In this document: one piece after another, positions 2,093 through 23,218 of the stretch
How the letters are laid out: each line of letters starts with the position of its first letter
Numbering within the stretch: position 1 is the first letter of the stretch
DNA from: a virus
Strand: one strand, 5' to 3'
Length of the DNA stretch: 24,182 nucleotides
IMG/VR virus record: IMGVR_UViG_3300042294_004558
Location: 1-24,182 of that record
Translations under genes and position numbers: made by a program
Notes under the pieces: model-generated
Databases searched by the model: none
What the model was told of the DNA's origin: nothing
What the model saw: the letters and a program-made list of their open reading frames with translations, nothing else

Positions 2093-2100
2093 ATATTTAT
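2093..2100 (+). promoter_or_regulatory. Candidate late-promoter octamer ATATTTAT, upstream of the 59-aa gene
   Basis: Copy of the octamer shared by nine intergenic sites, 39 bases before the ATG at 2140. It sits inside a perfect inverted repeat (GTATATA at 2087-2093, TATATAC at 2098-2104). Promoter function is inferred from recurrence and placement. Confidence 0.4.
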
Positions 2101-2139
2101 ATACGACAACTAATTTAATCAATCTTTAAACAAAAATTT

Positions 2140-2319
2140 ATGGCAACAATATTAATTATCATTTTTTGCACCGCAGTAGCAGCATTGGGAGCTAATTACG
2201 CAATCAAACATTTTTCATATTCAGAAGAAGAAGAAAGAATACCTGTAGAAAATTATGATTTAATTAATCCTAAAAAAGCCAAAACTAAAAAAGTAACCAA
2301 ATCGAAAACAAAAAAATAA
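2140..2319 (+). CDS. Small membrane-anchored protein (59 aa)
   Basis: ATG at 2140 opens 59 codons ending TAA at 2317-2319. Residues 2-22 are a hydrophobic segment (ATILIIIFCTAVAALGANYAI) long enough for one membrane span. An acidic stretch follows (EEEE at 29-32), then a strongly basic Lys-rich tail from residue 45. No family is recognised. It starts a cluster of four small genes, lies 39 bases after a candidate promoter octamer, and is followed after 4 bases by another gene with the same plan (N-terminal span, charged tail). The pair might be a lysis accessory, an envelope-interacting or a minor virion pair; nothing in the sequence decides between these. The coding call rests on the start context, composition and tight packing. 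Confidence 0.65.
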   Translation: MATILIIIFCTAVAALGANYAIKHFSYSEEEERIPVENYDLINPKKAKTKKVTKSKTKK

Positions 2320-2323
2320 AATT

Positions 2324-2608
2324 ATGACTATTTTTATTATTTCAGCTTTAGTAGCTGTAGCAGCAATTTTTGCCTTAATGAAATTTGGCAAAATCGAAGA
2401 CAAAGACGGAAACAATATCCCTGATGTTGTTGACACTAAAATTAAACAAACTAAAGAAGTAGCTAAAGAAGTTAAAGCTCGTGCTAAACGTGTATCTGAA
2501 GAAGCTGCTGATGTAGTTAAAGCCGTTAAAGAAGTAGCTAAACAAACAAAAGATGTTGTTGAAGCAACTAAAGGCGATAAAAGAAAAGGTAAAAAAGCCT
2601 CTAAATAA
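2324..2608 (+). CDS. Small membrane-anchored protein with Lys/Ala-rich helix (94 aa)
   Basis: Residues 3-19 form a hydrophobic N-terminal span. Residues 26-37 read DKDGNNIPDVVD, resembling a calcium-binding loop of the dockerin/thrombospondin-3 kind. Residues 38-94 are almost entirely Lys, Ala, Val and Glu with heptad-like spacing (KEVAKEVKARAKRV), predicting a long amphipathic helix and a very basic end. This YtxH-like layout is common in small envelope proteins but carries no specific function. It follows the 59-aa gene by 4 bases and precedes the Cys-rich gene by 15, so the three are probably co-transcribed. Not recognised beyond this. Confidence 0.7.
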   Translation: MTIFIISALVAVAAIFALMKFGKIEDKDGNNIPDVVDTKIKQTKEVAKEVKARAKRVSEEAADVVKAVKEVAKQTKDVVEATKGDKRKGKKASK

Positions 2609-2623
2609 ACAAATTAACTAGTT

Positions 2624-2848
2624 TTGAACAAGTTAGTAGAGATAGCCAAAGCTTGGATAATAGCAGCTAATCCCTCACCAGAAGAAGAAAAAAAAGCATT
2701 GTCTCGTTCTGCTATATGTGACGAATGTCCTGAAAAAAAGCATAACGATCATTTAAAATTCTTTTACTGTGATGAATGTGGTTGTCCTTTATCCAAGAAA
2801 ATCTACTCTCCTATTAACTCATGTCCCTTAAAAAAATGGAAAATCTAA
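2624..2848 (+). CDS. Small Cys-rich, zinc-ribbon-like protein (74 aa)
   Basis: The start must be TTG at 2624: an in-frame TAA lies at 2615-2617 and no ATG occurs in the first part of the frame. Cysteines fall as CxxC at 32 and 35, CxxCxC at 49, 52 and 54, and a last Cys at 67 in a CPLKKW ending. That pattern fits one bound zinc. Proteins of this size and ending recur in T4-like phage tail regions, but I know of no assigned role. The reading frame overlaps the next gene. Rarely used TTG may keep expression low. Confidence 0.7.
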   Translation: MNKLVEIAKAWIIAANPSPEEEKKALSRSAICDECPEKKHNDHLKFFYCDECGCPLSKKIYSPINSCPLKKWKI

Positions 2849-3111
2849 AAAAACAACTAACACAAGAAGAAATTGATGCAATTAAAGACTTACAAGCACA
2901 ATACAACAAAGCTGTATTTGAATTAGGAAGTGTTGAAGCACAATTACATTATTTATTAGCTCAAACTGAATCTTTAAAAACTGAAAAAAATAGTATCTTA
3001 AGTGATATGAATAAAATTGGTGATAAAGAAAAAGAATTAGTAGATTCTTTACAAGAGAAATACGGAGCCGGTAATATTGACTTAGCTTCTGGGGAAATTA
3101 CCCCACTCTAA
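2821..3111 (+). CDS. Small coiled-coil protein upstream of the sheath gene
   Basis: 96 residues from ATG 2821, or 91 from the in-frame ATG at 2836. The second start is attractive because it follows an A-rich stretch and gives MENLKKQLTQEEIDAIKDLQ, a natural beginning. The protein is nearly all helix with heptad spacing up to about residue 80, then ends with EKYGAGNIDLASGEITPL. That ending (YGxGxIxLxxGEhxP) recurs in small proteins near tail genes of T4-like phages. It overlaps the Cys-rich gene by 28 bases (13 from the second start), implying coupled translation. It may be an assembly chaperone or scaffold, by analogy with prefoldin-like helical hairpins; this is inference. Confidence 0.75.
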   Translation: MSLKKMENLKKQLTQEEIDAIKDLQAQYNKAVFELGSVEAQLHYLLAQTESLKTEKNSILSDMNKIGDKEKELVDSLQEKYGAGNIDLASGEITPL

Positions 3112-3141
3112 TCAATTTTTTCGTTTTGTATGTTTTTTTAG

Positions 3142-3149
3142 ATATTTAT
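3142..3149 (+). promoter_or_regulatory. Candidate late-promoter octamer ATATTTAT before the sheath gene
   Basis: Octamer copy 47 bases upstream of the sheath ATG, preceded by a T-rich stretch. The tube gene has exactly the same 47-base spacing. The long A-rich leader fits a highly expressed gene. Confidence 0.5.
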
Positions 3150-3196
3150 TAATAGACAAATTCTATTTAAAATAAATTAATAATTAATCATACAAA

Positions 3197-4918
3197 ATGG
3201 CAGAAAAAATTATCTCCCCTGGTGTTTTCCAAATTGAATCAGATCAGAGTGCGTATACTCAAGGTCCTCAAGTTGTAGGTGCCGCTATCATAGGTCCAAC
3301 TGTAAAAGGTCGCCCAATGGTACCTACTTATGTTACCTCATTTAGCGAATTCCAATCTATATTTGGTGAAACATTTAAAAGTGCTTCATATTATTATGAA
3401 TACTTTACCTCTTTAGCAGCTAAAGATTACTTCCAAAACGGAGGTCAAACATTATTAGTAACCAGAATTATTAGTGGTTCGGCTAATATTAGTACTTATG
3501 CAACTGCAAACGTAGCTGCTTTAAATGCTAATAGTAGTGTAACCGCTTCATTTACCCTAGAAACTTTAGCTTGGGGTGATCAAATGAATAATACCTCTAG
3601 TTTATCTGCAGGTGCTTTAGCAAGTGGTTCAGCTGATAACGTTCGATATGAGATTACAAATGTTAATACCGGTTCAGGTGTATTTACTTTAGTAATTCGT
3701 CGTGGTGATGATAATAATGCTCAACCTAATATTTTAGAAACATGGGCTAATTTATCATTAGATCCACAATTACCTAACTATGTTTCTCGTGTAATTGGTG
3801 ATTTAAAACCAGTATATGATGTAACTAATGGATTTGTAAATTTTACAGGTTCATTTGCAAACGCTTCTCAATATGTACGCGTTGCATCTGTTACAACTCC
3901 TAACGTAGATTCAATTGATAATAACGGATTTTACAAATCAGGATCATATAGCGGTAGCTTACCTAACTTAGGTAGTGGTTCATTTGGTGGTTCATTTGCT
4001 GGTGGTGTTGCTGCAACAACTACTCAACAAAGAATGAATGAAGATATTACTGCAACCAATATTCAAGGTTACAGTCCAAACGATTATTTAAATGCATTTA
4101 CATTATTATCAAATCAAGACGAATATCAATTCAATATATTATTAGCTCCTGGTGTTGGTTTAGATGGTTCAGCTGCTGATAATGCAATTTCATGTGTTGA
4201 ATCAAGAGGTGATGCTATAGCAATCGTAGATAATGGAATATATGGTACTTCAATTACAGCTGCTACAACAAATGCTGCTGGTCAATCAAGTAACTATGGT
4301 GCTACTTATTATCCATGGGTTCAATTATTTAGCACAAACCTAGGTAAAGTTGTATGGTGTCCACCTTCAGTAGTAATGGGTGGTGTTTATGCATTTAACG
4401 ATCAAGTAGGTGCTGAATGGTTTGCTCCAGCAGGTTTAAACCGTGGTGGTATTCCATCAGTAGTAAGAGCTGAACGCAGATTATCTCAATCAGATCGTGA
4501 TACATTATATTCAGCAAATGTTAATCCATTAGCTACCTTCCCAGGTAACGGTGTTGTAGCATTTGGTCAGAAAACATTACAACGTAAACAAACATCATTA
4601 GATAGAGTAAACGTACGTCGTTTATTAATTTCATTAAAAGGATTTGTTGGAAACGTAGCTCGTACATTAGTATTCGAACAAAATACAGCAGTAACAAGAA
4701 ATCGTTTCTTATCACAAGTTAATCCATACTTAGAATCAGTAGTACAACGTCAAGGTTTATTCGCATTTAAAGTAGTAATGGATGATACTAATAATACACC
4801 TGATGTAATTGATAGAAACCAATTAGTAGGTACAATTTATATTCAACCTACTAAAACAGCTGAATTTATCATATTAAACTTTAATATCCTTCCAACTGGA
4901 GCTCAATTCCCAGCATAA
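3197..4918 (+). CDS. Contractile tail sheath protein (T4 gp18-like)
   Basis: 573 residues (T4 gp18 is 659). The start, ISPGVFQIESDQSAYTQGP followed by AAIIGPTVKGRP, is the classic sheath N-terminus whose strand swaps with neighbouring subunits. The C-terminal third is the conserved sheath core: RVNVRRLLISLKGFVGNVAR, FEQNT, then NRFLSQVNPYLESVVQRQG and FKVVMDD. It ends with GTIYIQPTKTAEFIILNF, the strand used for inter-subunit linkage. The middle (about 95-290) is Ser/Gly/Thr-rich and variable, as expected for surface-exposed domains. In T4-like virions the sheath wraps the tube and contracts to drive it through the envelope. It is the sole gene between a promoter-like octamer and a strong terminator, which should give an insulated, abundant transcript. 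Confidence 0.96.
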   Translation: MAEKIISPGVFQIESDQSAYTQGPQVVGAAIIGPTVKGRPMVPTYVTSFSEFQSIFGETFKSASYYYEYFTSLAAKDYFQNGGQTLLVTRIISGSANISTYATANVAALNANSSVTASFTLETLAWGDQMNNTSSLSAGALASGSADNVRYEITNVNTGSGVFTLVIRRGDDNNAQPNILETWANLSLDPQLPNYVSRVIGDLKPVYDVTNGFVNFTGSFANASQYVRVASVTTPNVDSIDNNGFYKSGSYSGSLPNLGSGSFGGSFAGGVAATTTQQRMNEDITATNIQGYSPNDYLNAFTLLSNQDEYQFNILLAPGVGLDGSAADNAISCVESRGDAIAIVDNGIYGTSITAATTNAAGQSSNYGATYYPWVQLFSTNLGKVVWCPPSVVMGGVYAFNDQVGAEWFAPAGLNRGGIPSVVRAERRLSQSDRDTLYSANVNPLATFPGNGVVAFGQKTLQRKQTSLDRVNVRRLLISLKGFVGNVARTLVFEQNTAVTRNRFLSQVNPYLESVVQRQGLFAFKVVMDDTNNTPDVIDRNQLVGTIYIQPTKTAEFIILNFNILPTGAQFPA

Positions 4919-4947
4919 GGAATTAAAGTTAAACAAATAACTAAAAC

Positions 4948-4980
4948 AAAGCCTTAACGAAAGTTGGGGCTTTTGTTTTT
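4948..4980 (+). terminator. Rho-independent terminator after the sheath gene
   Basis: An 11-bp stem (AAAGCCTTAAC at 4948-4958 with GTTGGGGCTTT at 4963-4973, two G-U pairs) closed by a GAAA tetraloop at 4959-4962. A T-rich run (TTTTGTTTTT) follows directly. It lies 29 bases after the sheath stop. Confidence 0.88.
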
Positions 4981-4988
4981 ATTTTCGT

Positions 4989-4996
4989 ATATTTAT
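4989..4996 (+). promoter_or_regulatory. Candidate late-promoter octamer ATATTTAT before the 62-aa gene
   Basis: Octamer copy only 14 bases before ATG 5011 and directly downstream of the sheath terminator. If it acts as a -10 element, the transcript would have a very short leader. Confidence 0.42.
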
Positions 4997-5010
4997 AATA
5001 GTAATAGATT

Positions 5011-5199
5011 ATGATTTACCAAGTACAAATGCAATTCATCCCAGGTTTAGATCAAATTTGGGTAGCTCAATTAACACCAGAAGATCCAATTTATCAATAT
5101 GATAATGAGGAAGAAGCAGTAGTAAAAGCTAATGAACTTCAAGCAGCTGATGAGACTGGAAGACAGTATCGTGTACAACAACTAGAAGTAGTAGAATAA
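5011..5199 (+). CDS. Small acidic protein between sheath and lectin-like gene (62 aa)
   Basis: Unrecognised. It begins MIYQVQMQFIPGLDQIWVAQ and ends in YRVQQLEVVE; the middle is Glu/Asp/Ala-rich, so the protein is acidic, with predicted strand-helix-strand character and no Cys or membrane segment. It reads as a real gene: it has its own octamer just upstream, neighbour-like codon use, and a 10-base gap to the next gene. It shares a putative transcript with the LamG-like gene, so it could assist or accompany that protein, but there is no direct evidence of function. Confidence 0.62.
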   Translation: MIYQVQMQFIPGLDQIWVAQLTPEDPIYQYDNEEEAVVKANELQAADETGRQYRVQQLEVVE

Positions 5200-5209
5200 T
5201 ACTTAATGT

Positions 5210-6001
5210 ATGCCCTTAACCTTATCAAATACAAGTGGTATTGGAAATTTTAAATTAGTAAACAATACTAATAGTGGTGGATTTATTACATCTGTTGGTG
5301 CTTCCATTGTTACAACAGGACTAATATTAAATTATAATATTAATGATCCTTCAAGTTACCCAGGTACTGGAGATACAGTTACCGATTTAACAGGAAGTAG
5401 TAATGCTACTTTATATAATTCTCCAACATATACATCCTCAGGTGGCGGTTACTTAACTTTCAACGGTACTGATCAATATTTAGGAACTAATACTTCATTA
5501 AATAATAAATTATCCCCAGTAAATACATCTAATATAATATCAATATTTGTATGGGCTTATCCTATGGATAATGGGGTTATTGTATCGGAGCAAGGATCAA
5601 CAAGTATAAATACAGGATGGCACGATTCTCAACTAGAAATGGTTGCAGGAACACTTAAGTTTTCAGTTTGGACTGGTGGTGTGCAAAATTTATCATCAAA
5701 TATATCAACTCCTTTAAATAATTGGTATTATATGGGATTCACGTATAACGGAACAAATTTAGTTGGATATGTTAATGGAGCTTCTGCTGTAACAAGTGGT
5801 ACAATTACAAGACAAACCCCATATAATAATGGTGGTGGTGTAGGATTATATTATGCGATAGCTGCTGTTGATGGTACAAGTTTAGGAGATGGAACATACG
5901 CTAATATGAGATTTGGTGGAATGCAAGTATATAATACAGCATTAAGCGCTGCAGATGTACTTCAAAACTATAATGCACAAAAATCTAGATTTGGACTGTA
6001 A
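5210..6001 (+). CDS. LamG/concanavalin A-like lectin-domain protein
   Basis: 263 residues. A short N-terminal segment (about 1-35) is followed by a laminin G-like jelly roll. The marks are LILNYNINDPSSYPGTGDTV (a modified LxLDAGNPxSYPGxG start), DLTGSSNATLYN, YLTFNGTDQYL, the W-containing strand IFVWAYP, WYYMGFTYNGTNLVGYVNG, and the closing GGMQVYNTALSAADVLQNYNAQKSRF. In phages such domains usually bind glycans and occur on fibres, decoration proteins or sheath appendages. The gene sits between sheath and tube, which are adjacent in T4, so it looks like an inserted virion-surface module. No catalytic residues are evident. A decoration or adhesion role is likely but inferred. Confidence 0.8.
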   Translation: MPLTLSNTSGIGNFKLVNNTNSGGFITSVGASIVTTGLILNYNINDPSSYPGTGDTVTDLTGSSNATLYNSPTYTSSGGGYLTFNGTDQYLGTNTSLNNKLSPVNTSNIISIFVWAYPMDNGVIVSEQGSTSINTGWHDSQLEMVAGTLKFSVWTGGVQNLSSNISTPLNNWYYMGFTYNGTNLVGYVNGASAVTSGTITRQTPYNNGGGVGLYYAIAAVDGTSLGDGTYANMRFGGMQVYNTALSAADVLQNYNAQKSRFGL

Positions 6002-6009
6002 AAATATTA

Positions 6010-6017
6010 ATATTTAT
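6010..6017 (+). promoter_or_regulatory. Candidate late-promoter octamer ATATTTAT, distal copy before the tube gene
   Basis: First of two octamer copies in the 137-base gap before the tube gene, 121 bases before its ATG and only 8 bases past the LamG-like stop. It may be a second start site or chance in a very AT-rich gap. Confidence 0.28.
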
Positions 6018-6083
6018 TGATAACTATTAAATAAAACAAAGAATAAAATTAAATTAAATATTATAGTTTTTTTATTTTTTTAT

Positions 6084-6091
6084 ATATTTAT
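6084..6091 (+). promoter_or_regulatory. Candidate late-promoter octamer ATATTTAT, proximal copy before the tube gene
   Basis: 47 bases before the tube ATG, the same spacing as at the sheath gene, and preceded by a long T-rich stretch. The next two bases (TA) also match the sheath site. The better candidate of the two for driving the tube gene. Confidence 0.5.
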
Positions 6092-6138
6092 TAACGTAAT
6101 AATTAATAACTAAGATTAACAATTAAAACAAAGATAAA

Positions 6139-6627
6139 ATGCCAGTATTAGACGCAAACGAAATAATGTTTACAGCTTTTGAGCCGAAAGTAGCCAATCG
6201 CTTTATTATGTATATTGACGGTATCCCCGCATATTTAATTAAAAAAGCATCAGCTCCAGGATTCGAAGCAAATGAAATTATATTAGATCATATCAACGTA
6301 TACCGTAAAATTAAAGGTAAAGTAAGATGGTCTGATATGACTTTAGAATTATACGACCCAATTACACCATCAGGTGCACAAGCAGTAATGGAATGGGCTC
6401 GTTTAGCTCACGAATCAGTAACAGGTCGTGATGGTTATTCAGATTTCTACAAGAAAGATGTAACTTTAAATATCTTAGGTCCAGTTGGTGATGTAGTAGG
6501 TGAATGGATTATTAAAGGTGCATTTATTAAAACTGCAAACTTTGGAGAATACGATTGGTCAAGTGGTGAAGCAGCTATTTCATTAGGTATAACACTAGCA
6601 ATGGATTATTGCGTATTGAACTACTAA
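6139..6627 (+). CDS. Tail tube protein (T4 gp19-like)
   Basis: 162 residues, essentially the length of T4 gp19 (163). The conserved pattern is clear: EPKVANRFIMYIDGIPAYLI near the start, KASAPGF, INVYRKIKGKVRWSDMTLEL, YDPITPSGAQAVMEWARL, then YKKDVTLNILGPVGDVVGEW and the final ANFGEYDWSSGEAAISLGIT. These map to the beta-barrel that stacks in hexameric rings to form the inner tube. In T4 it polymerises on the baseplate hub and contacts the tape measure inside and the sheath outside. It is the only gene between a promoter-like octamer and a terminator, as for the sheath, which suits two proteins needed in large equal amounts. Confidence 0.96.
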   Translation: MPVLDANEIMFTAFEPKVANRFIMYIDGIPAYLIKKASAPGFEANEIILDHINVYRKIKGKVRWSDMTLELYDPITPSGAQAVMEWARLAHESVTGRDGYSDFYKKDVTLNILGPVGDVVGEWIIKGAFIKTANFGEYDWSSGEAAISLGITLAMDYCVLNY

Positions 6628-6644
6628 TACTAAATCAATATATA

Positions 6645-6678
6645 AAAAGAGCTTACCTTTTGGTGAGCTTTTTTGTTT
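6645..6678 (+). terminator. Rho-independent terminator after the tube gene
   Basis: The stem AGAGCTTACC pairs with GGTGAGCTTT around a TTTT loop at 6658-6661, with two wobble pairs and flanking A/T pairs. The run TTTTTTGTTT follows. It lies shortly after the tube stop at 6627. Confidence 0.86.
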
Positions 6679-6683
6679 CTTAT

Positions 6684-6691
6684 ATATTTAT
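6684..6691 (+). promoter_or_regulatory. Candidate late-promoter octamer ATATTTAT before the gp26-like gene
   Basis: Octamer copy 26 bases before ATG 6718 and directly downstream of the tube terminator. The flanks TATATATTTATATACG match those of the site at 2093 exactly over 16 bases. Confidence 0.48.
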
Positions 6692-6717
6692 ATACGCACA
6701 AAAATTAAAAACGTTAT

Positions 6718-7476
6718 ATGTCTGAATTAAAGTTACCAACCGAACAAGTTACATTACCTTCAAAAGGTTTATTGTATCCAAAAGAAAATCCATTATCATC
6801 CGGAGTTATTGAGATGAAATATATGACTGCTAAAGAGGAAGATATCCTTACTAATAGCAATTATATTCGTCAAGGCACTGTTATTGATAAATTATTACAA
6901 GCATTAATTGTTACTCCAATTAATTATGATGATTTATTAGTAGGTGATAAAAATGCTATTTTAATATCTGCTCGTATTTTAGGATATGGTAAAGATTATA
7001 CATTTAAATATACTAATCAACTAGGAGAAGAAATAGAAGCAAATGTAGATTTATCTGGTTTAAAAGATAAAGAAATAGATGAATCATTATTTAAATCCGG
7101 TAAAAATGAATTTACATTTGAATTACCATTTTCTAAAAATGTAGTTACATTTAGATTATTAACACATGGTGATGAAAAAGATATTGAAGCTGAAATTAAA
7201 GGTTTAAAGAAAATTAATCCATCTGCTACATACGATGTAACAACTCGATTAAAATTCATTATTACTTCAGTAGAAGGAAAACATGATCAAAAATCAATAC
7301 GTGATTTTGTAGATAATTTCTTAATTGCTAAAGACGCAAGAGCATTACGTGAATATTATGCTCAAGTACAACCAGATATTGAATTAAAATACACTCCTGA
7401 GGATGAAAACTATACTGGGGAGGGTATAGATATTCCAATTAATCTTAACTTTTTTTGGCCTGACGCACGAATATAG
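6718..7476 (+). CDS. Baseplate hub/tail assembly protein (T4 gp26-like)
   Basis: 252 residues (T4 gp26 is 208). It opens with the family hallmark: VTLPSKGLLYP, then YMTAKEEDILTNSNYIRQGTVIDKLLQALI and DLLVGDKNAILISARILGYG. The middle has FELPFSKNVVTFRLLTHGDE and the end NLNFFWPDARI. In T4 this family (gp26, related to gp51) is needed to build the central hub, with a catalytic or chaperone-like role rather than a major structural one. Its position just before an 80-aa partner and the tape measure gene parallels the tail assembly chaperones of other phages. The last codons contain a run of seven T (7450-7456) where the frame of the next gene is already open, raising the chance of a fused product of about 335 residues. 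Confidence 0.82.
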   Translation: MSELKLPTEQVTLPSKGLLYPKENPLSSGVIEMKYMTAKEEDILTNSNYIRQGTVIDKLLQALIVTPINYDDLLVGDKNAILISARILGYGKDYTFKYTNQLGEEIEANVDLSGLKDKEIDESLFKSGKNEFTFELPFSKNVVTFRLLTHGDEKDIEAEIKGLKKINPSATYDVTTRLKFIITSVEGKHDQKSIRDFVDNFLIAKDARALREYYAQVQPDIELKYTPEDENYTGEGIDIPINLNFFWPDARI

Positions 7477-7483
7477 GTTTATA

Positions 7484-7726
7484 ATGTTTGCTCAAATCCA
7501 TGATATAGTATTTCATGGTAATGGTGGATTTGATTGGGAAACTATTTATAATATGCCTATTTGGCTTCGTCGATTTACCTTTAATAAAATTAAAGAACAT
7601 TTTGAAAAACAAAACGAAGAAAATGAAAAACAGCAAAACATGTTAAATAATAAACAAAATGCTCGTAAAGAAATAGCGCGACCTAATATAGCTCCAACGT
7701 ACACAACGAAAGCTCCTAAAAAATAG
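7484..7726 (+). CDS. Small tail-assembly partner protein next to the tape measure gene (80 aa)
   Basis: The conserved-looking core is HDIVFHGNGGFDWETIYNMP followed by IWLRRFTFNKIKEHFEKQ; after residue 45 the protein is a polar, Lys/Gln/Asn-rich tail. Similar short proteins with a GGxxWxxVYxMPxxLRRF-type core follow gp26-like genes in T4-like phages, and I believe they act with it in tail assembly. An AGG at 7475-7477 lies 6 bases before the ATG, so independent initiation is plausible. However the frame is open back to 7430, inside the upstream gene, and would allow a +1 or -2 frameshift fusion at the U7 run. The stop codon lies inside the terminator-like hairpin at 7708-7734. Confidence 0.78.
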   Translation: MFAQIHDIVFHGNGGFDWETIYNMPIWLRRFTFNKIKEHFEKQNEENEKQQNMLNNKQNARKEIARPNIAPTYTTKAPKK

Positions 7727-7734
7727 GGGCTTTC
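7708..7734 (+). terminator. Hairpin overlapping the stop of the 80-aa gene (terminator-like)
   Basis: An 11-bp stem (GAAAGCTCCTA with TAGGGGCTTTC, one G-U pair) around an AAAAA loop. The stop TAG forms part of the 3' arm. The arm ends TTTC with no long T run, so it may terminate weakly, or protect the mRNA end, before the tape measure promoter octamer at 7736. Confidence 0.62.
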
Positions 7735-7735
7735 A

Positions 7736-7743
7736 ATATTTAT
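7736..7743 (+). promoter_or_regulatory. Candidate late-promoter octamer ATATTTAT before the tape measure gene
   Basis: Octamer copy 21 bases before ATG 7765 and one base after the preceding hairpin. This hairpin-then-octamer order repeats the arrangement after the sheath and tube genes. Confidence 0.46.
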
Positions 7744-7764
7744 ATAATGTAATATTATACTAAT

Positions 7765-10299
7765 ATGGCTGAAGAATTAGATAAAAAATTAGATAGTTTT
7801 AATAATGAGCTAAATAAAATTTCAGATCGCATAAAAGATTTTGGAATAGTTTTAGAAGATAATTTAGCTGGAAAACTACAGGATAGTATTAATGCTGCTA
7901 AGGGTTTATCTGAACCTTTAAAAGATGCAGCCTCAATTACTAAACAATTAAATACTTTATCTTCTGCTAATGAAACTCTTATTGTTAGAAGAAAAGCAGC
8001 AGAAGAATCATATGTAGCAGCACTAAAAAAAGGAAATAAAGCACAAATTGAAACTACTGAAGAAAAATATGAACAATTACGTGCCCAATTAAATATTTCT
8101 TTATCTTTAGAAGATCAAGTAAGAAAACTACAAATTATTGCTGAAGAAGAAGAAATAATAACAAAGGAAAAACAAAAACAAAATTCTCTTGAAAATAGTA
8201 TAGGAAATGCTTTATCAAAATCTTTTGGTATTACCAAGAATAGTATTAAAGAAATGTTTACACTATCTGGTATATTTGCATTAATATTATCTAAAGCACT
8301 TGAATTTAATAAAACATCAGTTGAATTAAGTAAAAATTTAGGATACGCTGGTGGAAAAGCAGATAGAATGTTATATGGTCTAGCTGCTAGTTCTGTTGCC
8401 TCTAGTAATTTAAATTTAAATTCAAAAGCAGCAGCTGAAGCAATAGGACAAATAGCTGAATCTACAGGATATATAGCTGAATTTTCTCAAGATGCTTTAG
8501 AAACCCAAATAATGTTAACCAAACAATTTGGTTTAACAGGAGCAGAAGCAGCAAGAATATATGAATTATCTGTACTAACAGGAAAATCATCATCCCAAGT
8601 AAATGATGAAATGGTTGGTGCTTTTGTAGCAACAAGAAATCAATTAAAAGTTGGTGTTCCTTTTAAAGCAACAATAGCAGCAGCTGCTAAAGTATCAGGT
8701 CAACTAGCAGCAAATTTACAAAATAATCCTGCATTGATAACAAAAGCAGTAGTACAAGCAGCTGCTTTAGGTACTACCTTAGAACAAACAGCTAGTCAAG
8801 CTGAAAAATTACTTGATTTTAGTTCATCTATTGAAAGTGAATTAAAAGCAGAATTATTAACTGGAAAGCAATTAAATTTAGAAAGAGCAAGAGCAGCAGC
8901 ATTAGCTGGTGATCAAGTAACATTAGCTCAAGAATTAAATAAAAATGTTGGAAGTTTAGAAGACTTTCAAAAAATGAATGTATTACAGCAAAAAGCATTA
9001 GCTGAAGCTGTAGGCTTAACTGCTGACCAATTAGCAGAACAATTAAAAAAACAACAAATTGCAAAAGAAACTGGTAAATCAATTGCCGAACAAAATAAGG
9101 AAGAATTATTAGCTGCACAAAAACGTCAAAATTTACAAGATATGTTTAATGCTGCTGTAAATAAATTATCAGATATACTAACAGTAATTGCTAGTGGCCC
9201 TATTGGAATGTTACTTTCAGGTCTTGCTAGTATATTAAGTAATACTTATTTATTTTATGGTGCATTAGCATTAGTTGCTGCTTTAAAATTTACTAACATT
9301 ACAAATGCTTTTAAAGAAGTAGGTGGTATTGGAGATAAATTAAAAGGATTACTAGGTGGTGGTGGTGCTAAAGATAAAACGGCTGAAGCAGCAACAAAAG
9401 GAGCAGAAGCTGGAACAAAAGTAGGCGGTACAGGTAAAGCTGGTGATGGAATAAAAAATACCTTAAAAGGAATATCTGCAGGTGTTTCATCATTTTCACA
9501 AGTAAAACCTTCTGACATATTAAAACTTTTAGGAACTTCTTTAGCCTTAGTAGCTTTAACACCAGCAATACCAGGATTATTATTATTACAATTAGTAAAT
9601 GGAAAATTAATTCAAGGAGCTTTAACAGGATTAGGACAAGGATTAACAGCATTTGGTGCTGCAATGTCAACAGGAGTAGCTGCCTTAGGACTTGCCGCAT
9701 TAGTAGCAGCAGCAGTAGGGTTAGGATATGCTTTAGGATTAGCAGCTCCCGCAATAGAAGCTTTTGGTAAAGGAATAGCAGCTATATTTGATTCATTTGC
9801 TAAAATGGATATAGGCCAAATATTATTAATAGGACCAGCACTTGCTAGTATAGGAATAGGTATGATATCATTAGGAGCAGGAGCTGTAGCAGGTAGTGTA
9901 GGAGCATTAATTGCTGTAGGAATAATATCAAAATTAGCAGAAAAAGGAGATCAATTAAATGTTACTGCAACTGCTCTTCAAAACATGGCAACTGCCTTAA
10001 CCCAAGTATCTTCAGCATTAGCCGGAATTGATGTTAGTAAATTAGATGCTTTAGATAATTTTGCCTCTAATAGATCTAGTGAATCAATAGTAGGTGGTAT
10101 AACTGATTTTATAACTGCACCTATTAAATCAGCAGGAGAATCAATTGGTAATGGAGGTAATGATATGACTCCAATGATAACAGCAATAAATGAAGTTAGA
10201 GCAGAAGTTGCTAAATTAGCAAATCGTCCAATTAATATTAATATGGATGGTAAAAAAGTAGGCAGTGGATTAACACAAGGGTCTTATAAAGTAGCTTAA
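7765..10299 (+). CDS. Tail tape measure protein
   Basis: 844 residues, very rich in Ala, Leu and Gly. Residues 1-150 are charged and coiled-coil forming. Residues about 150-470 are a long helical region with Ala/Gln-rich repeats. Hydrophobic stretches lie near 471-510, 585-612, 627-665 and 685-722, with a Gly/Lys/Thr-rich linker at about 530-565. The end, INEVRAEVAKLANRPI followed by DGKKVGSGLTQGSYKVA, is a typical tape-measure C-terminus. Such proteins line the tube and set its length, and their hydrophobic parts are thought to enter the host membrane at ejection. By the usual ratio of about 0.15 nm per residue the tail would be roughly 125 nm. Position after the gp26-like pair supports the call. 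It corresponds in role to T4 gp29, though direct homology is not visible by eye. Confidence 0.87.
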   Translation: MAEELDKKLDSFNNELNKISDRIKDFGIVLEDNLAGKLQDSINAAKGLSEPLKDAASITKQLNTLSSANETLIVRRKAAEESYVAALKKGNKAQIETTEEKYEQLRAQLNISLSLEDQVRKLQIIAEEEEIITKEKQKQNSLENSIGNALSKSFGITKNSIKEMFTLSGIFALILSKALEFNKTSVELSKNLGYAGGKADRMLYGLAASSVASSNLNLNSKAAAEAIGQIAESTGYIAEFSQDALETQIMLTKQFGLTGAEAARIYELSVLTGKSSSQVNDEMVGAFVATRNQLKVGVPFKATIAAAAKVSGQLAANLQNNPALITKAVVQAAALGTTLEQTASQAEKLLDFSSSIESELKAELLTGKQLNLERARAAALAGDQVTLAQELNKNVGSLEDFQKMNVLQQKALAEAVGLTADQLAEQLKKQQIAKETGKSIAEQNKEELLAAQKRQNLQDMFNAAVNKLSDILTVIASGPIGMLLSGLASILSNTYLFYGALALVAALKFTNITNAFKEVGGIGDKLKGLLGGGGAKDKTAEAATKGAEAGTKVGGTGKAGDGIKNTLKGISAGVSSFSQVKPSDILKLLGTSLALVALTPAIPGLLLLQLVNGKLIQGALTGLGQGLTAFGAAMSTGVAALGLAALVAAAVGLGYALGLAAPAIEAFGKGIAAIFDSFAKMDIGQILLIGPALASIGIGMISLGAGAVAGSVGALIAVGIISKLAEKGDQLNVTATALQNMATALTQVSSALAGIDVSKLDALDNFASNRSSESIVGGITDFITAPIKSAGESIGNGGNDMTPMITAINEVRAEVAKLANRPININMDGKKVGSGLTQGSYKVA

Positions 10300-10307
10300 C
10301 AAATTTA

Positions 10308-10315
10308 ATATTTAT
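10308..10315 (+). promoter_or_regulatory. Candidate late-promoter octamer ATATTTAT before the 78-aa gene
   Basis: Octamer copy 25 bases before ATG 10341, nine bases after the tape measure stop. No terminator hairpin separates it from the tape measure gene. It would serve the baseplate operon that runs to 17021. Confidence 0.44.
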
Positions 10316-10340
10316 ACTAAACAATTAAACACAATAAATT

Positions 10341-10577: not shown

Positions 10578-10586
10578 ATCTAGGTA

Positions 10587-12917: not shown

Positions 12918-12919
12918 CA

Positions 12920-13225: not shown

Positions 13226-13229
13226 TGTT

Positions 13230-16517: not shown

Positions 16518-16520
16518 AAT

Positions 16521-17021: not shown

Positions 17022-17060
17022 TAAATTATTCGTACATTATAAATATAAAGGTTATGACAA

Positions 17061-18344
17061 ATGTTTTACATAGTAGAAAAGGCAGAGCAACTAGCTAAAT
17101 TACAAGATCTAGGAGATTGTTTTGTAAATTTCATCCCATTAAATAATAATTATCACCCAAATCTTACTGATTTGAGTTTAATTTATATTAGACCTATTAA
17201 TCATAAGAAGGGATGGATATTATGTATAAACCATACTGAGGCTTTTAAATTAAACAAAGAAAAAACATTACAACATTTATTTAATAATGTTGATAAAATG
17301 TTTGTTCCTCAAAAGAAGGAAGCATTATATCATTTCCCACATCCTGAAAAATTATATGATATTAATTTTATTGAATATATCAATTTAGATGATAATATAA
17401 TTACAAATAAATGCACCGATTTTTACTACAGATACCATTACAAAACACCAATAGTAAATTCACTAATCCCCATCAGTAAACACTATGAGGAACAAGAAAC
17501 TATATTTGATATGGTGCTACCAGTTATACACAAATATAGCGCAAATGATGCCATTTACAGGTTTAATAACGAATTAACCAGCGTGGCGTTCCACCGTATT
17601 GAGAAAAATGGAATAGCGTTGAATAAACAGTGCTTTATATCACAATATCTAGAATCTTTACATTATCCTGAATTTAATATTCATAAAGGTAAAATATACA
17701 CGCAATATAATTTATATACAACGACTTCACGTCCATCCAACAGGTTTAACGGCATTAATTTTGCTGCGTTGAATAAAACCGATAACGAGCGAGTATGCTA
17801 TGAACCATCTAATAACGCGTTCATAGAAATGGACTTTAGTGGATATCACCCTCGATTAATTGGTGAATTAATTGGTTTTCCTTTAATAGCTGATAACATT
17901 TATGAAAGTTTAAATGTAGGTAAAGAGGAAATGTTCCAAAATTTGTATGGTGGTATAAGAAAAGAATATAAAGACAAACCATTCTTTAAAGAAGCATCAT
18001 CTTATGTTGATGGAGTGTGGAAATTATTAAATAATGATGGAAAAGTCCATACTGTAAATAAAACGTTTAAATTAAACGAAATAGATACACCAAACCCAAC
18101 AAAAATATTTAACTATATTATTCAGAGTTGTGAAACATCAACAAACGTTAAAATTTTACTAAATATTTTAGACTACTTAAAAGATAAACAAACAAAATTA
18201 GTATTATACACATATGATGCGGTATTATTCGATTATTCAGAATCAGATGGCGCAGAATTATTACAAGAAATTAAAAAAATTATGAAATACCCTGTTAAAA
18301 CTAAAAAAGGAATAAACTATAAAGCGATGGAAAGTTATGCGTAG
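17061..18344 (+). CDS. Compact family A (Pol I-like) DNA polymerase
   Basis: 427 residues. Residues from about 215 carry the family A palm/fingers motifs: TTTSRPSNRFNGINFAALNK (TGRLSS...NLQNIP equivalent), motif A IEMDFSGYHPRLIGEL with Asp258, motif B K288-xxx-F292-xxx-Y296-G297, and motif C LYTYDAVLF with Asp386. Both catalytic aspartates remain. Oddities: the steric-gate Glu of motif A is His263, the His-Asp-Glu of motif C is Tyr-Asp-Ala, and the motif B Arg is not seen. The first about 190 residues show no recognisable 3'-5' exonuclease motifs, and the 5' nuclease is separate (20767). Neighbours are gp32-, UvsX- and gp41-like genes, so this is probably the replicative enzyme, unless a family B polymerase lies elsewhere. 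The start follows AAAGG at 17047. Codon use is less AT-biased in places than the tail genes. Confidence 0.85.
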   Translation: MFYIVEKAEQLAKLQDLGDCFVNFIPLNNNYHPNLTDLSLIYIRPINHKKGWILCINHTEAFKLNKEKTLQHLFNNVDKMFVPQKKEALYHFPHPEKLYDINFIEYINLDDNIITNKCTDFYYRYHYKTPIVNSLIPISKHYEEQETIFDMVLPVIHKYSANDAIYRFNNELTSVAFHRIEKNGIALNKQCFISQYLESLHYPEFNIHKGKIYTQYNLYTTTSRPSNRFNGINFAALNKTDNERVCYEPSNNAFIEMDFSGYHPRLIGELIGFPLIADNIYESLNVGKEEMFQNLYGGIRKEYKDKPFFKEASSYVDGVWKLLNNDGKVHTVNKTFKLNEIDTPNPTKIFNYIIQSCETSTNVKILLNILDYLKDKQTKLVLYTYDAVLFDYSESDGAELLQEIKKIMKYPVKTKKGINYKAMESYA

Positions 18345-18786
18345 CGTTGTTTTCGAGTATTCTGACATATTTATCTCGGATATATCAACCGAGAATATTT
18401 TGAACAAATTATTTTGCACATTTACATCACCCTCCGCGGTAGATGAAACTATAAGCACGATCAGTAGCAAATATTCAATATTATTTAACAAGATATTCGT
18501 TCTTGAATCTCCTGATTCTGATGAATTAGTCTGCACATATAATATTGACACGGGAAACGTATCATCTCAACCCCTCCCAAATACGATACTATTACATCGT
18601 AAAAAAGAATCTAATACATTATACACAATTAATGCATTAAATACTCTAATTAAATCCTTAAACGGAGGAGTGCTAGATACTCAGTATCGTATTAATTGGT
18701 ATGACTATAAGAACTGTATTCTCTTGACTACCGGAGAAGACCTTCGTAGATTAGATACTAAGATAAATAAAGTGGTCAATCTTTAG
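18337..18786 (+). CDS. Unknown protein overlapping the polymerase gene (149 aa)
   Basis: Not recognised. It begins MRSVVFEYSDIFISDISTEN and overlaps the polymerase end by 8 bases, so its translation is probably coupled to the polymerase. Visible segments are NILNKLFCTFTSPSAVDETI, LPNTILLHRKKESNTLYTIN, ALNTLIKSLNGGVLD and INWYDYKNCILLT. It has two Cys in non-zinc spacing, a mix of helices and strands, and no membrane span. The basic HRKKES stretch could touch nucleic acid. The position between polymerase and ssDNA-binding protein suggests a replication or expression-control accessory, such as a clamp-like, polymerase-partner or RegA-like factor, but no motif confirms any of these. Confidence 0.68.
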   Translation: MRSVVFEYSDIFISDISTENILNKLFCTFTSPSAVDETISTISSKYSILFNKIFVLESPDSDELVCTYNIDTGNVSSQPLPNTILLHRKKESNTLYTINALNTLIKSLNGGVLDTQYRINWYDYKNCILLTTGEDLRRLDTKINKVVNL

Positions 18787-18850
18787 TGATTGTCACAATA
18801 AAGGTTATTATATTCAATAGGTTATAAAATTAAAATTAAAAAGTTACATT
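18787..18850 (+). promoter_or_regulatory. AU-rich gp32-gene leader, possible autoregulatory operator
   Basis: Sixty-four bases before the gp32-like ATG. The first half can form small hairpins (ATTGT/ACAAT at 18789-18799). The second half is unstructured AAAATTAAAATTAAAAAG just before the start. T4 gene 32 mRNA has a similar layout, a folded 5' element then repeated UUAAA-type single-stranded sequence over the start, through which gp32 represses its own translation. Function here is by analogy only. Confidence 0.35.
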
Positions 18851-19675
18851 ATGGATTTATCATTAATTAAAAACAAGCTTGCAGGATTGCAGCAAAGCTC
18901 TCAACCGAGAGAAAAAGTGGATTACACTAAAATTTTTTGGAAGCCGAAAGTAGGTACTTATCAAGTACGTATTGTTCCTTCTAAATTCGACAAACAAAAC
19001 CCATTTAAGGAAGTTTATTTCCATTATGGTTTTACTAAAGGTCCTATTCTAGCATTAACTAATTGGGGTGAAAAAGATCCAATTGTTGAATTTGCTAAAT
19101 CATTACGCAAATCATCTGATAAAGAAGATTGGCAATTAGCAAGAAAATTAGATGCTAAAATGCGCGTGTTCGCACCAGTAATTGTACGTGGTGAAGAAGA
19201 ACAAGGTACACGTTTATGGGAATTTGGTAAAGAAATTTATCAACAATTATTAGGTATTGCAGCCGATGAGGATTACGGTGATTTCACTGATATTCAAGAC
19301 GGTCGTGACTTTACAGTTGAAGCAACTAATGGTGAGGTTGCAGGTCGTAGCGTAGTAAAATGTGCTTTACGTCCAAAACCAAAAACATCTCCAATCACTG
19401 ATAATGCTACTTTATTACAAACATTATTAGATGAACAACCTGATATCTTAACAATCAACAGAAGATATACCTTTGATGATTTAAAAACCATCTTAGAGAA
19501 ATTCTTAAACCCTGAAGATGATATCGAGGATAATGTTCCTGTAGTAGCAAACACAGTAGCTGATTCAGCTGAACCTTCGGATTTGCCTTGGGAAAAACCA
19601 GAAGCAAAACCATACACTTTAGAGAATGTCGCTCCTAAAGCAACTAATACAGACAAATTCGACGAATTATTTTAA
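18851..19675 (+). CDS. Single-stranded DNA-binding protein (T4 gp32-like)
   Basis: 274 residues (T4 gp32 is 301). The N-terminus MDLSLIKNKLAGLQQSSQ is a basic-hydrophobic arm of the kind used for cooperative binding. The core has KVDYTKIFWKPKVGTYQVRI and then VPSKFDKQNPFKEVYFHYGF, which opens the OB fold of this family; later blocks are GTRLWEFGKEIYQQLLG and RDFTVEATN. SLRKSS (about 95-100) resembles the Lys/Arg-Ser/Thr LAST motif. After about residue 215 the chain is acidic and Pro-rich, ending DKFDELF, the tail that contacts other replication proteins. It has one Cys only, so the gp32 zinc site is absent. It coats ssDNA and should work with the polymerase, UvsX and helicase encoded nearby. 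Confidence 0.88.
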   Translation: MDLSLIKNKLAGLQQSSQPREKVDYTKIFWKPKVGTYQVRIVPSKFDKQNPFKEVYFHYGFTKGPILALTNWGEKDPIVEFAKSLRKSSDKEDWQLARKLDAKMRVFAPVIVRGEEEQGTRLWEFGKEIYQQLLGIAADEDYGDFTDIQDGRDFTVEATNGEVAGRSVVKCALRPKPKTSPITDNATLLQTLLDEQPDILTINRRYTFDDLKTILEKFLNPEDDIEDNVPVVANTVADSAEPSDLPWEKPEAKPYTLENVAPKATNTDKFDELF

Positions 19676-19688
19676 CTAAAAACAAGTT

Positions 19689-20780
19689 ATGGCTAAGAAA
19701 GAAAAAAGTAGCTTAACTGAAGTAGTATCTAGATCATTGGGCAAAACCTTTGATTTAGATACATTTAAGAAATCCAAATTCTTAGATAAATCAGTTAAGT
19801 TTAAACCACAAAGGTGGATTCCATTATCTAAAGCATTCCAGGATGTTATTTCATTACCTGGTATTCCTTTAGGACACATTACATTATTGCGAGGCCATTC
19901 AGATACAGGTAAAACAACAGCAATGTTGGAAGCCGCTGTAAATGCTCAGAAAATGGGTATTCTACCAGTTTTTATTATCACTGAGATGAAATGGAATTGG
20001 GATCACGCTAAACAAATGGGATTTGAAATTAATGAAGTAGCTGATCCTGAAACAGGTGAAGTTATTGATTATAATGGATTTTTCCTTTATATAGATAGAG
20101 GTTCACTAAACACAATTGAAGATGTAGCGGCATTCATTGCTGACTTATTAAATGAACAAGCTACAGGTAAATTACCTTATGATTTATGTTTCTTCTGGGA
20201 TTCAGTTGGATCCATTCCATGTAGAATGTCTGTTGAAAAATCAACAAACAACAACGAGTGGAATGCAGGTGCAATGTCTCAACAATTTGGAAACTTTATT
20301 AATCAAAAATTAATTTTATCTCGTAAAGAAAATATTCCTTATACTAATTCATTAGTAGCTGTTAATAAGGTGTGGGTTGCAAAACCAAATTCACCAATGG
20401 AACAACCAAAAATGAAGAATAAGGGTGGAGATACAATGTTTTTTGATTCATCATTAGTAGTAACATTTGGTAATATCACAAATAGTGGTACCAACAAATT
20501 AAAAGCAACTAAAGATGGCAAAGACGTTGAATTTGCTAAACGCACAAAAATATCAGTTGATAAAAACCACGTTACTGGTGTACAAACTAAAGGTACAGTA
20601 ACAATGACAGTTCATGGTTTCATTGATGACGATAAAAGAGCAATTGACAATTACAAGAAAGAACATGCTGATGAATGGTTAAAAATTCTAGGTACTCTTG
20701 ATTTTGATCTAATTGAAGATAAATCAGAATGGAATGAAAGCAATAACGCTATAACTGATATTACAGATGGCGAAGAATAG
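19689..20780 (+). CDS. uvsX: RecA-like recombinase UvsX
   Basis: 363 residues (T4 UvsX is 391). Walker A is GHSDTGKT at 69-76, followed by FIITEMKWNWDHAKQMGF; its Glu matches the catalytic position after strand 2 in RecA-type ATPases. Walker B is DLCFFWDSVGS with Asp171. The loop MSQQFGNFINQKLILSRKEN and the block KGGDTMFFDSSLVVTF are characteristic of phage UvsX. It forms filaments on ssDNA, pairs homologous strands, and in T4-like phages starts recombination-dependent replication, displacing the gp32-type protein encoded just upstream. No UvsY is seen in this window. It starts after AAGTT, 13 bases past the gp32 stop, and overlaps the exonuclease gene by 14 bases. The acidic end is normal for the family. 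Confidence 0.94.
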   Translation: MAKKEKSSLTEVVSRSLGKTFDLDTFKKSKFLDKSVKFKPQRWIPLSKAFQDVISLPGIPLGHITLLRGHSDTGKTTAMLEAAVNAQKMGILPVFIITEMKWNWDHAKQMGFEINEVADPETGEVIDYNGFFLYIDRGSLNTIEDVAAFIADLLNEQATGKLPYDLCFFWDSVGSIPCRMSVEKSTNNNEWNAGAMSQQFGNFINQKLILSRKENIPYTNSLVAVNKVWVAKPNSPMEQPKMKNKGGDTMFFDSSLVVTFGNITNSGTNKLKATKDGKDVEFAKRTKISVDKNHVTGVQTKGTVTMTVHGFIDDDKRAIDNYKKEHADEWLKILGTLDFDLIEDKSEWNESNNAITDITDGEE

Positions 20781-21783
20781 ATTTGCATCATTATTAGCAG
20801 GTATTACTAATGAACCTGAAACCGAAAATACTTCAGTATTAATTATAGACGGTTTAAATACATTCCTACGTAACTTTTCAATTATAAACCACATCCATCC
20901 TTCAGGCCACCACATTGGTGGTCTGACTGGATTTTTAAAGTCACTAGGATATGCTATTAAAATGAATTCACCTACAAAGGTAATTATTGTATTTGATGGT
21001 GTAGGCGGTTCAAACGCTAAACGTAATCTATATCCAGCTTATAAAGCAAATCGTAATGCAGATCGCATTACCAATTATAAAATATTTAACAATAAGGAAG
21101 AAGAAAGTGAATCAATATCTGACCAAATGGAAAGATTAATTCAATATCTCCAATCACTCCCAGTTAGTTTAATATCAATAGATGGTATTGAAGCCGATGA
21201 TGTTATGGGATACTTAGCTCAAAAATACGAAAGTGTTGAAGATTGTAAAAGAGTAACTATAATGTCTGCTGATCAGGATTTCTTACAATTAGTAAGTAAT
21301 AAGGTTAATATTCATTCACCAACTAAAAAGAAAATATATGATATAGATAGTTTTACAGAAGAATATGGTATTCATCCTAGAAACTACTTATTATATAAAA
21401 CATTTATGGGTGATAAAGGTGATAATGTTCCTAAAGTAAAGGGATTAGGTGAAGATAAATTATTAAAAATTTTACCACAATTAAAAGGTCCTGCTCCTTT
21501 ACAATTAGAACCATTATTGGAATCATTAGATCCATACGATAAATGGGGGTCACAATTATTAAATTTCTCTCATCAACTCCGAATCAATTATCGATTAATG
21601 AATTTAAGAGATGTTCCTCTTTCAAACGAGAACATTGAAATTATTGAAAATTCTGTTGCATTTAAACGTGAATACAACAAACCGGGGTTTTTACATTTGT
21701 ACTATAAAGATAACTTAGGCAACGGCATCCCTAACGTTGAGACTTGGCTTTCAGAAGTGTTTGGTTATCTGAGTACGTTTTAG
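20767..21783 (+). CDS. 5'-3' exonuclease / flap nuclease (T4 RNase H-like)
   Basis: 338 residues (T4 RNase H is 305). Metal-binding acids typical of the FEN/Pol I 5' nuclease fold are present: IIDGLNTFLR with Asp28, IVFDG with Asp77, IEADDV with Glu142, Asp144 and Asp145, SADQDFL with Asp169 and Asp171, and GDKGDNVPKVKGLG with Asp216 and Asp219 leading into the helix-hairpin-helix. RNLYPAYKANR is the usual arch-region motif. It removes RNA primers and flaps from Okazaki fragments. Because the family A polymerase at 17061 has no such domain, this gene supplies the 5' nuclease that bacterial Pol I carries as a fusion. The start overlaps uvsX by 14 bases (ATGGCGAAGAATAG), implying coupled expression. 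Confidence 0.9.
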   Translation: MAKNRFASLLAGITNEPETENTSVLIIDGLNTFLRNFSIINHIHPSGHHIGGLTGFLKSLGYAIKMNSPTKVIIVFDGVGGSNAKRNLYPAYKANRNADRITNYKIFNNKEEESESISDQMERLIQYLQSLPVSLISIDGIEADDVMGYLAQKYESVEDCKRVTIMSADQDFLQLVSNKVNIHSPTKKKIYDIDSFTEEYGIHPRNYLLYKTFMGDKGDNVPKVKGLGEDKLLKILPQLKGPAPLQLEPLLESLDPYDKWGSQLLNFSHQLRINYRLMNLRDVPLSNENIEIIENSVAFKREYNKPGFLHLYYKDNLGNGIPNVETWLSEVFGYLSTF

Positions 21784-21807
21784 TACATTTAAGAATAAAT
21801 AAAAGTT

Positions 21808-23178
21808 ATGACTACACTAAACAGCTTAGAGAAGTACGGAACATCCTTCCAAATAAAAGTAATAGGAGCTTTGCTAACGCAAAGACAATTTTTACTTAAT
21901 ATTTTTGACTCCTTAGAAAGCGAATATTTTGGGAACACATCACATCAATGGATAGTTGATTTTATAATTAAATACTTCAGCGAATATCATACAATTCCAT
22001 CATTAGAAACATTATCTATTGAAGTAAAAAAGATAGATAATGAAGTATTGCGTATTGCTTTAACTGAGGCGCTACGTGAAGCATATAAAGCAGCTGATTC
22101 TAAAGATTTAGAATATGTTGAAACTGAATTCACATCATTTTGTGGAAACCAGCAAATGAAAAAAGCACTAATGACATCAGTTGATCTACTTAACATAGGA
22201 GATTTTGATGGTATTAGACGTTTGATCAATAATGCTATGAAAGCAGGTGAGGATAAGAATATTGGTCACGAATATGATTTAGATATTGAAACCCGATATA
22301 GAGATGATGATAGACATGCTATTCCATTTCCTTGGCCTACGTTTAATGAATTAACTCAAGGTGGAGTTGGTGGTGGAGATTTAGTTTTAATGTTTGGTAA
22401 TCCAGGTGGAGGTAAATCATGGGCTGTAATTGCTATGGGTGCCTTTGCTGCAGCATTAGGATATAATGTGTTACACTATTCATTAGAATTAGGTGAAGGT
22501 TATGTAGGTAAAAGATATGATGCTGTATTTTCAGGAATACCAGTTGATCAATTAAATGAACATAGAGCTGCTGTTGAAGAAATAGTTAAACAAGTAAAAG
22601 GTAAAATTGTAATTAAAGAATATCCTCCAAAAAGAGTATCTTTAGAAACAATTGAAGCACATATTCAACAATTAGAAAATCAAAACGAATTTAAACCTGA
22701 TTTAATTATTATTGACTATTTAGATTTATTAAAAGGTAAATCAAGAAAAGAACGTAAAGATGAAATTGATGATGTTTATACTGATGCTAAAGGTTTAGCT
22801 AAGGTTTTAAACAAACCAATCATATCACCTTCACAAGCTAATAGAACAGCATCAAAATCTAGTATTATTGAAGGTGATAATGCAGCCGGATCATATGATA
22901 AAATTATGATCGGTGATATTATTATTTCAGTAGCACGTAGAAAGAAAGATAAAGTAAGAGGAACAGGAAAATGGCACATTATGAAAAACAGATATGGTGC
23001 AGATGGTTTAACTTTTAATTCTACTATCGATACAGCAAACGGAAAAATAGTAATTGAAAGTTCTCCAACAGAAGATGATGATGAAGAAGGCGAAGCACCT
23101 AAAGTAGGATTCTCTAATTTTGATACAGACGATAGAGATATCCTAAAGAAAAAGTTTTTTGAACTAAATCAAAGATAA
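21808..23178 (+). CDS. Replicative DNA helicase (T4 gp41 / DnaB family)
   Basis: 456 residues (T4 gp41 is 475). Residues 1 to about 150 are the helical N-terminal domain (SFQIKVIGALLTQRQFLLNI), which in DnaB-type hexamers forms the primase-facing collar. The RecA-like motor has Walker A GNPGGGKS at 197-204, the H1a-type acid in HYSLELGEGYVGKRYDA, and Walker B LIIIDYLDLL with Asp303. It continues with PIISPSQANRTASKS (glutamine switch) and an arginine-rich SVARRKKDKVRG, then KNRYGADG, the arginine-finger region. The tail is acidic. It unwinds parental DNA 5'-3' at the fork. It starts after AAAAGTT, 24 bases past the exonuclease stop. No primase is in the window. Confidence 0.92.
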   Translation: MTTLNSLEKYGTSFQIKVIGALLTQRQFLLNIFDSLESEYFGNTSHQWIVDFIIKYFSEYHTIPSLETLSIEVKKIDNEVLRIALTEALREAYKAADSKDLEYVETEFTSFCGNQQMKKALMTSVDLLNIGDFDGIRRLINNAMKAGEDKNIGHEYDLDIETRYRDDDRHAIPFPWPTFNELTQGGVGGGDLVLMFGNPGGGKSWAVIAMGAFAAALGYNVLHYSLELGEGYVGKRYDAVFSGIPVDQLNEHRAAVEEIVKQVKGKIVIKEYPPKRVSLETIEAHIQQLENQNEFKPDLIIIDYLDLLKGKSRKERKDEIDDVYTDAKGLAKVLNKPIISPSQANRTASKSSIIEGDNAAGSYDKIMIGDIIISVARRKKDKVRGTGKWHIMKNRYGADGLTFNSTIDTANGKIVIESSPTEDDDEEGEAPKVGFSNFDTDDRDILKKKFFELNQR

Positions 23179-23183
23179 AATTC

Positions 23184-23202
23184 GTCCATAATATTTATGG
23201 AC
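23184..23202 (+). promoter_or_regulatory. Perfect palindrome enclosing the octamer before thioredoxin
   Basis: GTCCATAA (23184-23191) and TTATGGAC (23195-23202) form an exact 8-bp inverted repeat with a TAT centre. The octamer ATATTTAT is at 23191-23198, 20 bases before the thioredoxin ATG. It could be a promoter overlapped by an operator, or an RNA hairpin ending the helicase mRNA; no T run follows, so termination is unlikely. It marks the change from replication to nucleotide genes. Confidence 0.45.
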
Positions 23203-23218
23203 CCAACAAATAAAATTT

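Follow-up and report, generated by a model that had tools for sequence, protein, structure and literature searches.

A conserved intergenic octamer as a probable late promoter box in T4-like phages of Bacteroidota

In the late promoters of phage T4, a TATA box of 8 bp precedes the start site by one turn, and a -35 element is lacking (PMC2988020). The T4 sigma factor gp55 reads A-12, A-9 and A-8 of this box, TATAAATA, inserting three bases into pockets (PMC7892883). In T4-like cyanophages the late promoter sequence NATAAATA is found upstream of structural genes and is variable at its first base (PMC2984593), and the flavobacterial sigma-A promoter is composed of a TTG at -33 and TAnnTTTG at -7 (PMC9723704). 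No description of late gene control was found in the literature searched for the group considered here, T4-like phages of Bacteroidota bearing gp18, gp19, gp20 and gp23. In these phages, late promoters may use ATATTTAT as their -10-like box, and this octamer very probably marks the start of late transcription driven by a phage sigma factor.

The window, i.e., the whole stretch of 24,182 nucleotides analysed, is a 24-kb IMG/VR fragment in which a T4-like tail cluster (sheath, tube, gp26-like hub, and tape measure) is followed by replication genes. A preliminary description had listed nine intergenic copies of ATATTTAT and a single genic copy at 18367, all of which proved exact, and its range of 14-121 bases from the octamer end to the ATG was as measured. 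Based on gene calls made as greedy ATG open reading frames of at least 40 aa, the 935 intergenic bases contain nine copies, whereas dinucleotide-shuffled gaps give 0.46 on average, so the frequency in gaps does exceed the expectation from base composition. The octamer is the most frequent one in the gaps and ranks first among the 56 octamers that share its base composition. On both strands of the whole window the total is 11 matches versus 9.6 expected, which is not unusual in DNA that is ~70% AT. This total matches chance; the signal is one of location and strand. Nine of the ten forward copies are intergenic (binomial P ~2e-12), with intergenic DNA making up 3.9% of the window, and all nine are oriented toward the following gene. 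The sense to antisense ratio in the gaps is 9:1, the antisense copy (17039-17046, reverse strand, in the gap before the open reading frame at 17061) having been overlooked in the preliminary description. A sense TATAAATA at 17038-17045, upstream of the same frame (polA), is probably a chance occurrence, because it is not kept in relatives. A scan for E. coli-type promoters detected nothing above chance.

The nearest named phages, based on the sheath protein, are Flavobacterium phage immuto (50% identity) and Microcystis phage Mel-JY01, and sheath matches were detected in 569 IMG/VR stretches. Relatives were examined as IMG/VR loci, and near-identical contigs inflate some of the counts. The enrichment extends to the relatives: ATATTTAT is found upstream of the sheath gene in all 74 with a placeable sheath start, usually 42-47 b from the ATG, and the gaps of the tail loci contain 389 sense and 3 antisense copies (17.6 expected). 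In eight relatives the gap ratios of sense to antisense are 14:0, 12:0, 17:0, 15:0, 13:0, 11:0, 27:1, and 18:1. The same procedure applied as a control to the T4 late region recovered TATAAATA at 4:0, and 80 loci from Bacteroidota hosts showed no enrichment of the octamer (9:3, 8.4 expected). We considered whether the octamer could be a chance product of AT-rich intergenic DNA, as the base composition and the whole-window count might suggest, but the 1000 gap shuffles never yielded more than three copies, and the strand asymmetry and the conservation in 74 of 74 relatives leave this reading with practically no weight.

The genes preceded by the box are of a particular class. Across nine genomes or long contigs (immuto being scored with A or C as the first base), the sheath, tube, gp26-like hub, tape measure, and 78-aa genes have the box in 9/9, and polA, SSB, RecA, exonuclease, and DnaB genes are never preceded by it. 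Late structural genes with the box and replication genes without it are the distribution expected of a T4-type late promoter. Beyond the tail genes, the box precedes the thioredoxin gene in the window and terminase, portal, GroES, and other genes in relatives, including both terminase and portal in the 182,846-b genome G001. In immuto, the box was found in 22 of the 30 gaps of structural regions versus 12 of 71 elsewhere (P = 9e-8).

The preliminary description had supposed that a phage sigma factor reads the T4 box in flipped form, or that the site works bidirectionally. It is true that TATTTATA and TATAAATA are exact reverse complements of each other, but the sites run one way, the genes are co-directional, and there are no divergent units; both the bidirectional and the flipped reading were rejected on the strand counts. 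Read in the same direction, TATTTATA and TATAAATA share A-12 and A-8 and differ only at two adjacent central positions, so no flipped reading is required, and we regard a reversed or bidirectional element as extremely improbable. The sense strand of the relatives has 3 copies of TATAAATA and 218 of TATTTATA, i.e., the sequence used is not the TATAAATA/NATAAATA of T4 and the cyanophages.

The flanks of the box provide a likely position for the start site. A profile of 136 sites is T-rich immediately 5' of the octamer, prefers A immediately 3', and is A-rich further downstream; 89% of the sites have a purine five bases past the octamer, and no -35-like element was detected in the profile. The octamer-to-ATG distances, compared across 93 gene families, are bimodal, with a leadered main class from ~14 bases and a second class at exactly 4 bases, in which 11 of the 93 families have a member (neighboring distances have 0-3 families). 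At a distance of 4, the A of the start codon coincides with the preferred purine, as would fit leaderless transcripts, and on this basis we infer a transcription start five bases after the octamer, which would place the box at approximately -12 to -5.

With this rule a start can be predicted for each box of the window, all on the forward strand. The box at 2093..2100 precedes a 59-aa gene (2140; predicted start ~2105) and is shared with the nearest relative, G003, and that at 3142..3149 precedes the tail sheath gene (3197; ~3154), the site present in 74/74 relatives. The box of a 62-aa gene (5011) at 4989..4996 (~5001) is kept in G003. Two boxes precede the tail tube gene (6139), an upstream one at 6010..6017 (~6022) and a gene-proximal one at 6084..6091 (~6096); G003 also has two, and a tube box is present in 9/9 genomes. 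The boxes of the gp26-like hub gene (6718) at 6684..6691 (~6696), of the tape measure gene (7765) at 7736..7743 (~7748; with CTATTTAT in immuto), and of the 78-aa gene (10341) at 10308..10315 (~10320) likewise recur in 9/9 genomes, and that of the thioredoxin gene (23219) at 23191..23198 (~23203) is found in 6 of the 7 genomes with the gene, immuto being the one without it. The thioredoxin box lies inside an inverted repeat, GTCCAT-AATATTT-ATGGAC (23183-23205), which G003 retains almost whole and more distant relatives do not. The sheath promoters alone (window 3100-3175, and relatives) have a conserved TGCGTTTT ~20 b 5' of the box and TTATTAGGTCAATCC just 3' of it, perhaps the site of an additional regulator.

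Three of the boxes lie directly behind terminator-like hairpins on the forward strand, as expected for separate transcription units: 3' of the sheath gene (4948..4973, ahead of the 4989 box), 3' of the tube gene (6645..6674, ahead of the 6684 box), and 3' of an 80-aa gene (7708..7734, abutting the 7736 box). The hairpin and box arrangement at the tape measure gene was found in most relatives. An element acting in RNA, such as a translation enhancer, a processing site, or a stability element of 5' leaders, would also always be located upstream of start codons, as the octamer is. However, the distance to the ATG ranges from 4 to >100 bases, the discrete leaderless class suits a start site and not a ribosome site, and the box frequently abuts a terminator hairpin, which together make an RNA element very unlikely. 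A late promoter is the reading we prefer, in which each late gene or short operon would have its own box, often just after the preceding unit's terminator, with transcription starting ~5 bases after the box and no -35 element.

The preliminary description had proposed a search for homologues of T4 gp55, gp33, and gp45, of which the clamp was recovered in relatives, gp33 was not, and for gp55 a sigma candidate was found. The window fragment has neither a sigma nor a clamp gene, and both are attributed to its phage from relatives; G001 is the only genome of the clade with A as the first base of the box in which the sheath box and the sigma gene are seen together. PHROG gp55 profiles did not detect the sigma gene in the IMG/VR relatives, and it was reached via immuto, in which a weak match to a T4 late-sigma profile (phrog_234, E 0.008) led to the gp118 family. 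This family is found in at least 600 IMG/VR stretches, and 29 of the 38 members searched match Sigma70 region 2 (Sigma70_r2; best E 3e-6). The candidate is present in both G001 and immuto, is 230-257 aa long with a conserved C-terminal part, and contains a conserved KAYSYFGTI/KAFSYFGTI that resembles region 2.3. Predicted structures have a pLDDT of 74 for the whole protein and 89 for the domain; most of their fold matches in the PDB, and nearly all of the top ones, are sigma factors, each individually weak (E 0.1-1), and a BFVD fold search reached E 1.8e-5, with named phage sigma factors from 4e-3. Sequence searches of the PDB returned unrelated weak matches or none, and a profile comparison of the family with T4 gp55 was not significant.

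A gp45-type sliding clamp was identified by phrog_223 in G002-G004 (E 5e-7 to 1e-8), with orthologues in G001 and G005, and was not found in immuto; the Pfam profile DNA_PPF yielded nothing above the cut-off where the PHROG clamp profile succeeded. For gp33, the Trans_coact profile (PF16805) gave one sub-threshold match in G001 that is not widely conserved, though a diverged gp33 could escape such a search.

The form of the box varies with the sigma-bearing lineage. Loci around the sigma gene have ATATTTAT at 225:18 in the G001 clade, whereas the immuto/marine set has CTATTTAT at 104:9 and ATATTTAT at 29:26. Because the second sigma-bearing lineage uses CTATTTAT, the core of the box is TATTTAT and the box is [A/C]TATTTAT, with the first base going with the lineage. 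Downstream of the sigma lies a small gene (MKLDLLKKLIKEAVKEAVREEL... in one clade and MNLEALRKLIREEMRTVIREELK... in the other) whose ATG follows the box at exactly 4 b; this spacing was counted in 47 and 73 members, respectively (loci L108-L187 and L257-L336), and predicts a conserved leaderless late mRNA. Mel-JY01, the record of which names a cyanobacterial host, encodes the sigma at 43% identity and has ATATTTAT as its top intergenic octamer (8:0, 1.0 expected); the presence of both despite the reported host suggests that the box tracks the sigma of the phage rather than that of the host. Box and sigma do not always occur together: the uncultured 484-kb phage LR756508.1 (L419, position 100339) has a sigma homologue, but the octamer is missing from 49 kb around its sheath gene, near which no box of the TATTTAT type was found.

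Taken as a whole, we assign a probability of about 0.85 to a model in which the box is a late promoter element read by the phage-encoded sigma within a cascade, possibly with coupling to the clamp. Promoter activity, the reading of this box by this sigma, and clamp coupling are what we infer from the computed patterns. A phage-encoded region-2 sigma would act on the host RNA polymerase; the host sigma would first transcribe the phage sigma gene from a host-type promoter (TTTG, 20 bases, TATATTG), the phage sigma would then direct the late genes, and the gp45-type clamp of the same phages may, as in T4, link late transcription with replication. The idea of a phage-specific late promoter in the preliminary description thus finds good support in strand, location, conservation, the start-site signature, and a matching sigma candidate in relatives, and its flipped or bidirectional component falls away.

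The likeness to T4 lies in an AT-rich, -10-like box of 8 bp that precedes the putative start by about one turn, an AT-rich downstream region, the lack of a -35 element, a single box for each late unit, and an encoded candidate phage sigma with region 2 and sliding clamp. Unlike in T4, the box is [A/C]TATTTAT at a putative -12 to -5 (-13 to -6 in T4), the sigma has 230-257 aa with its conserved C-terminal part (gp55 has 185 aa), no gp33 was found in the phages studied, and the gp55 profile match is not significant. As with the cyanophage NATAAATA, the box lies upstream of structural genes and has a variable first base, whereas its center in the same direction is TTT and that of NATAAATA is AAA. 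The late system would thus appear to work like that of T4, but a different box and a sigma not tied to gp55 at the profile level leave its membership in the T4 system unproven.

We tentatively suggest, at somewhat below even odds, that a large and environmentally widespread group of T4-like Bacteroidota phages, at least one member of which has a reported cyanobacterial host, uses its own sigma family for late transcription, not orthologous to gp55 and with a second domain, and that box and sigma have changed together. The joint change, with ATATTTAT in one clade and CTATTTAT in another, would imply either two origins of the T4 late-promoter logic or its reconstruction around another sigma. For a group spanning >600 IMG/VR stretches, the analysis supplies a late-promoter rule and a sigma candidate; the rule predicts start sites to the base and would make late genes recognizable in metagenomic contigs, and the joint natural variation of box and sigma is material for studying how sigma region 2 reads the -10 element.

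Alternatively, the box could be a variant of the -7 element (TAnnTTTG) read by the primary sigma of the Bacteroidota host, with no phage sigma involved. The putative -12 to -5 position coincides with that of the flavobacterial sigma-A box (PMC9723704), at an equal distance from the start site, and about half of the sites read TATATTTA, which is near TAnnTTT. Unlike that promoter, however, the late box has the core TATTTAT, is not enriched upstream of host genes, and has no TTG at a fixed -33 spacing, whereas an early-type motif of immuto, TTG-N20-TATATTTAG, has the TTG at one spacing in 18/18 copies. The C-lineage box CTATTTAT also violates TAnnTTT, and the identical octamer occurs in Mel-JY01 with its reported cyanobacterial host. 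We therefore consider exclusive use of the host sigma unlikely and favor the phage sigma as the reader of the box. The host sigma may still do some of the reading, because many late sites share TATATTTA with the early-type promoter of immuto. This early-type motif occurs solely outside the structural regions and looks like a host-type early promoter, and a conserved host-type promoter (TTTG-N20-TATATTG) also precedes the sigma gene of the G001 clade. In the immuto genome (60-76 kb and elsewhere; L089-L092), the repeated TTG-N20-TATATTTAGGTAT, with 18 gap copies outside structural regions, is strikingly uniform.
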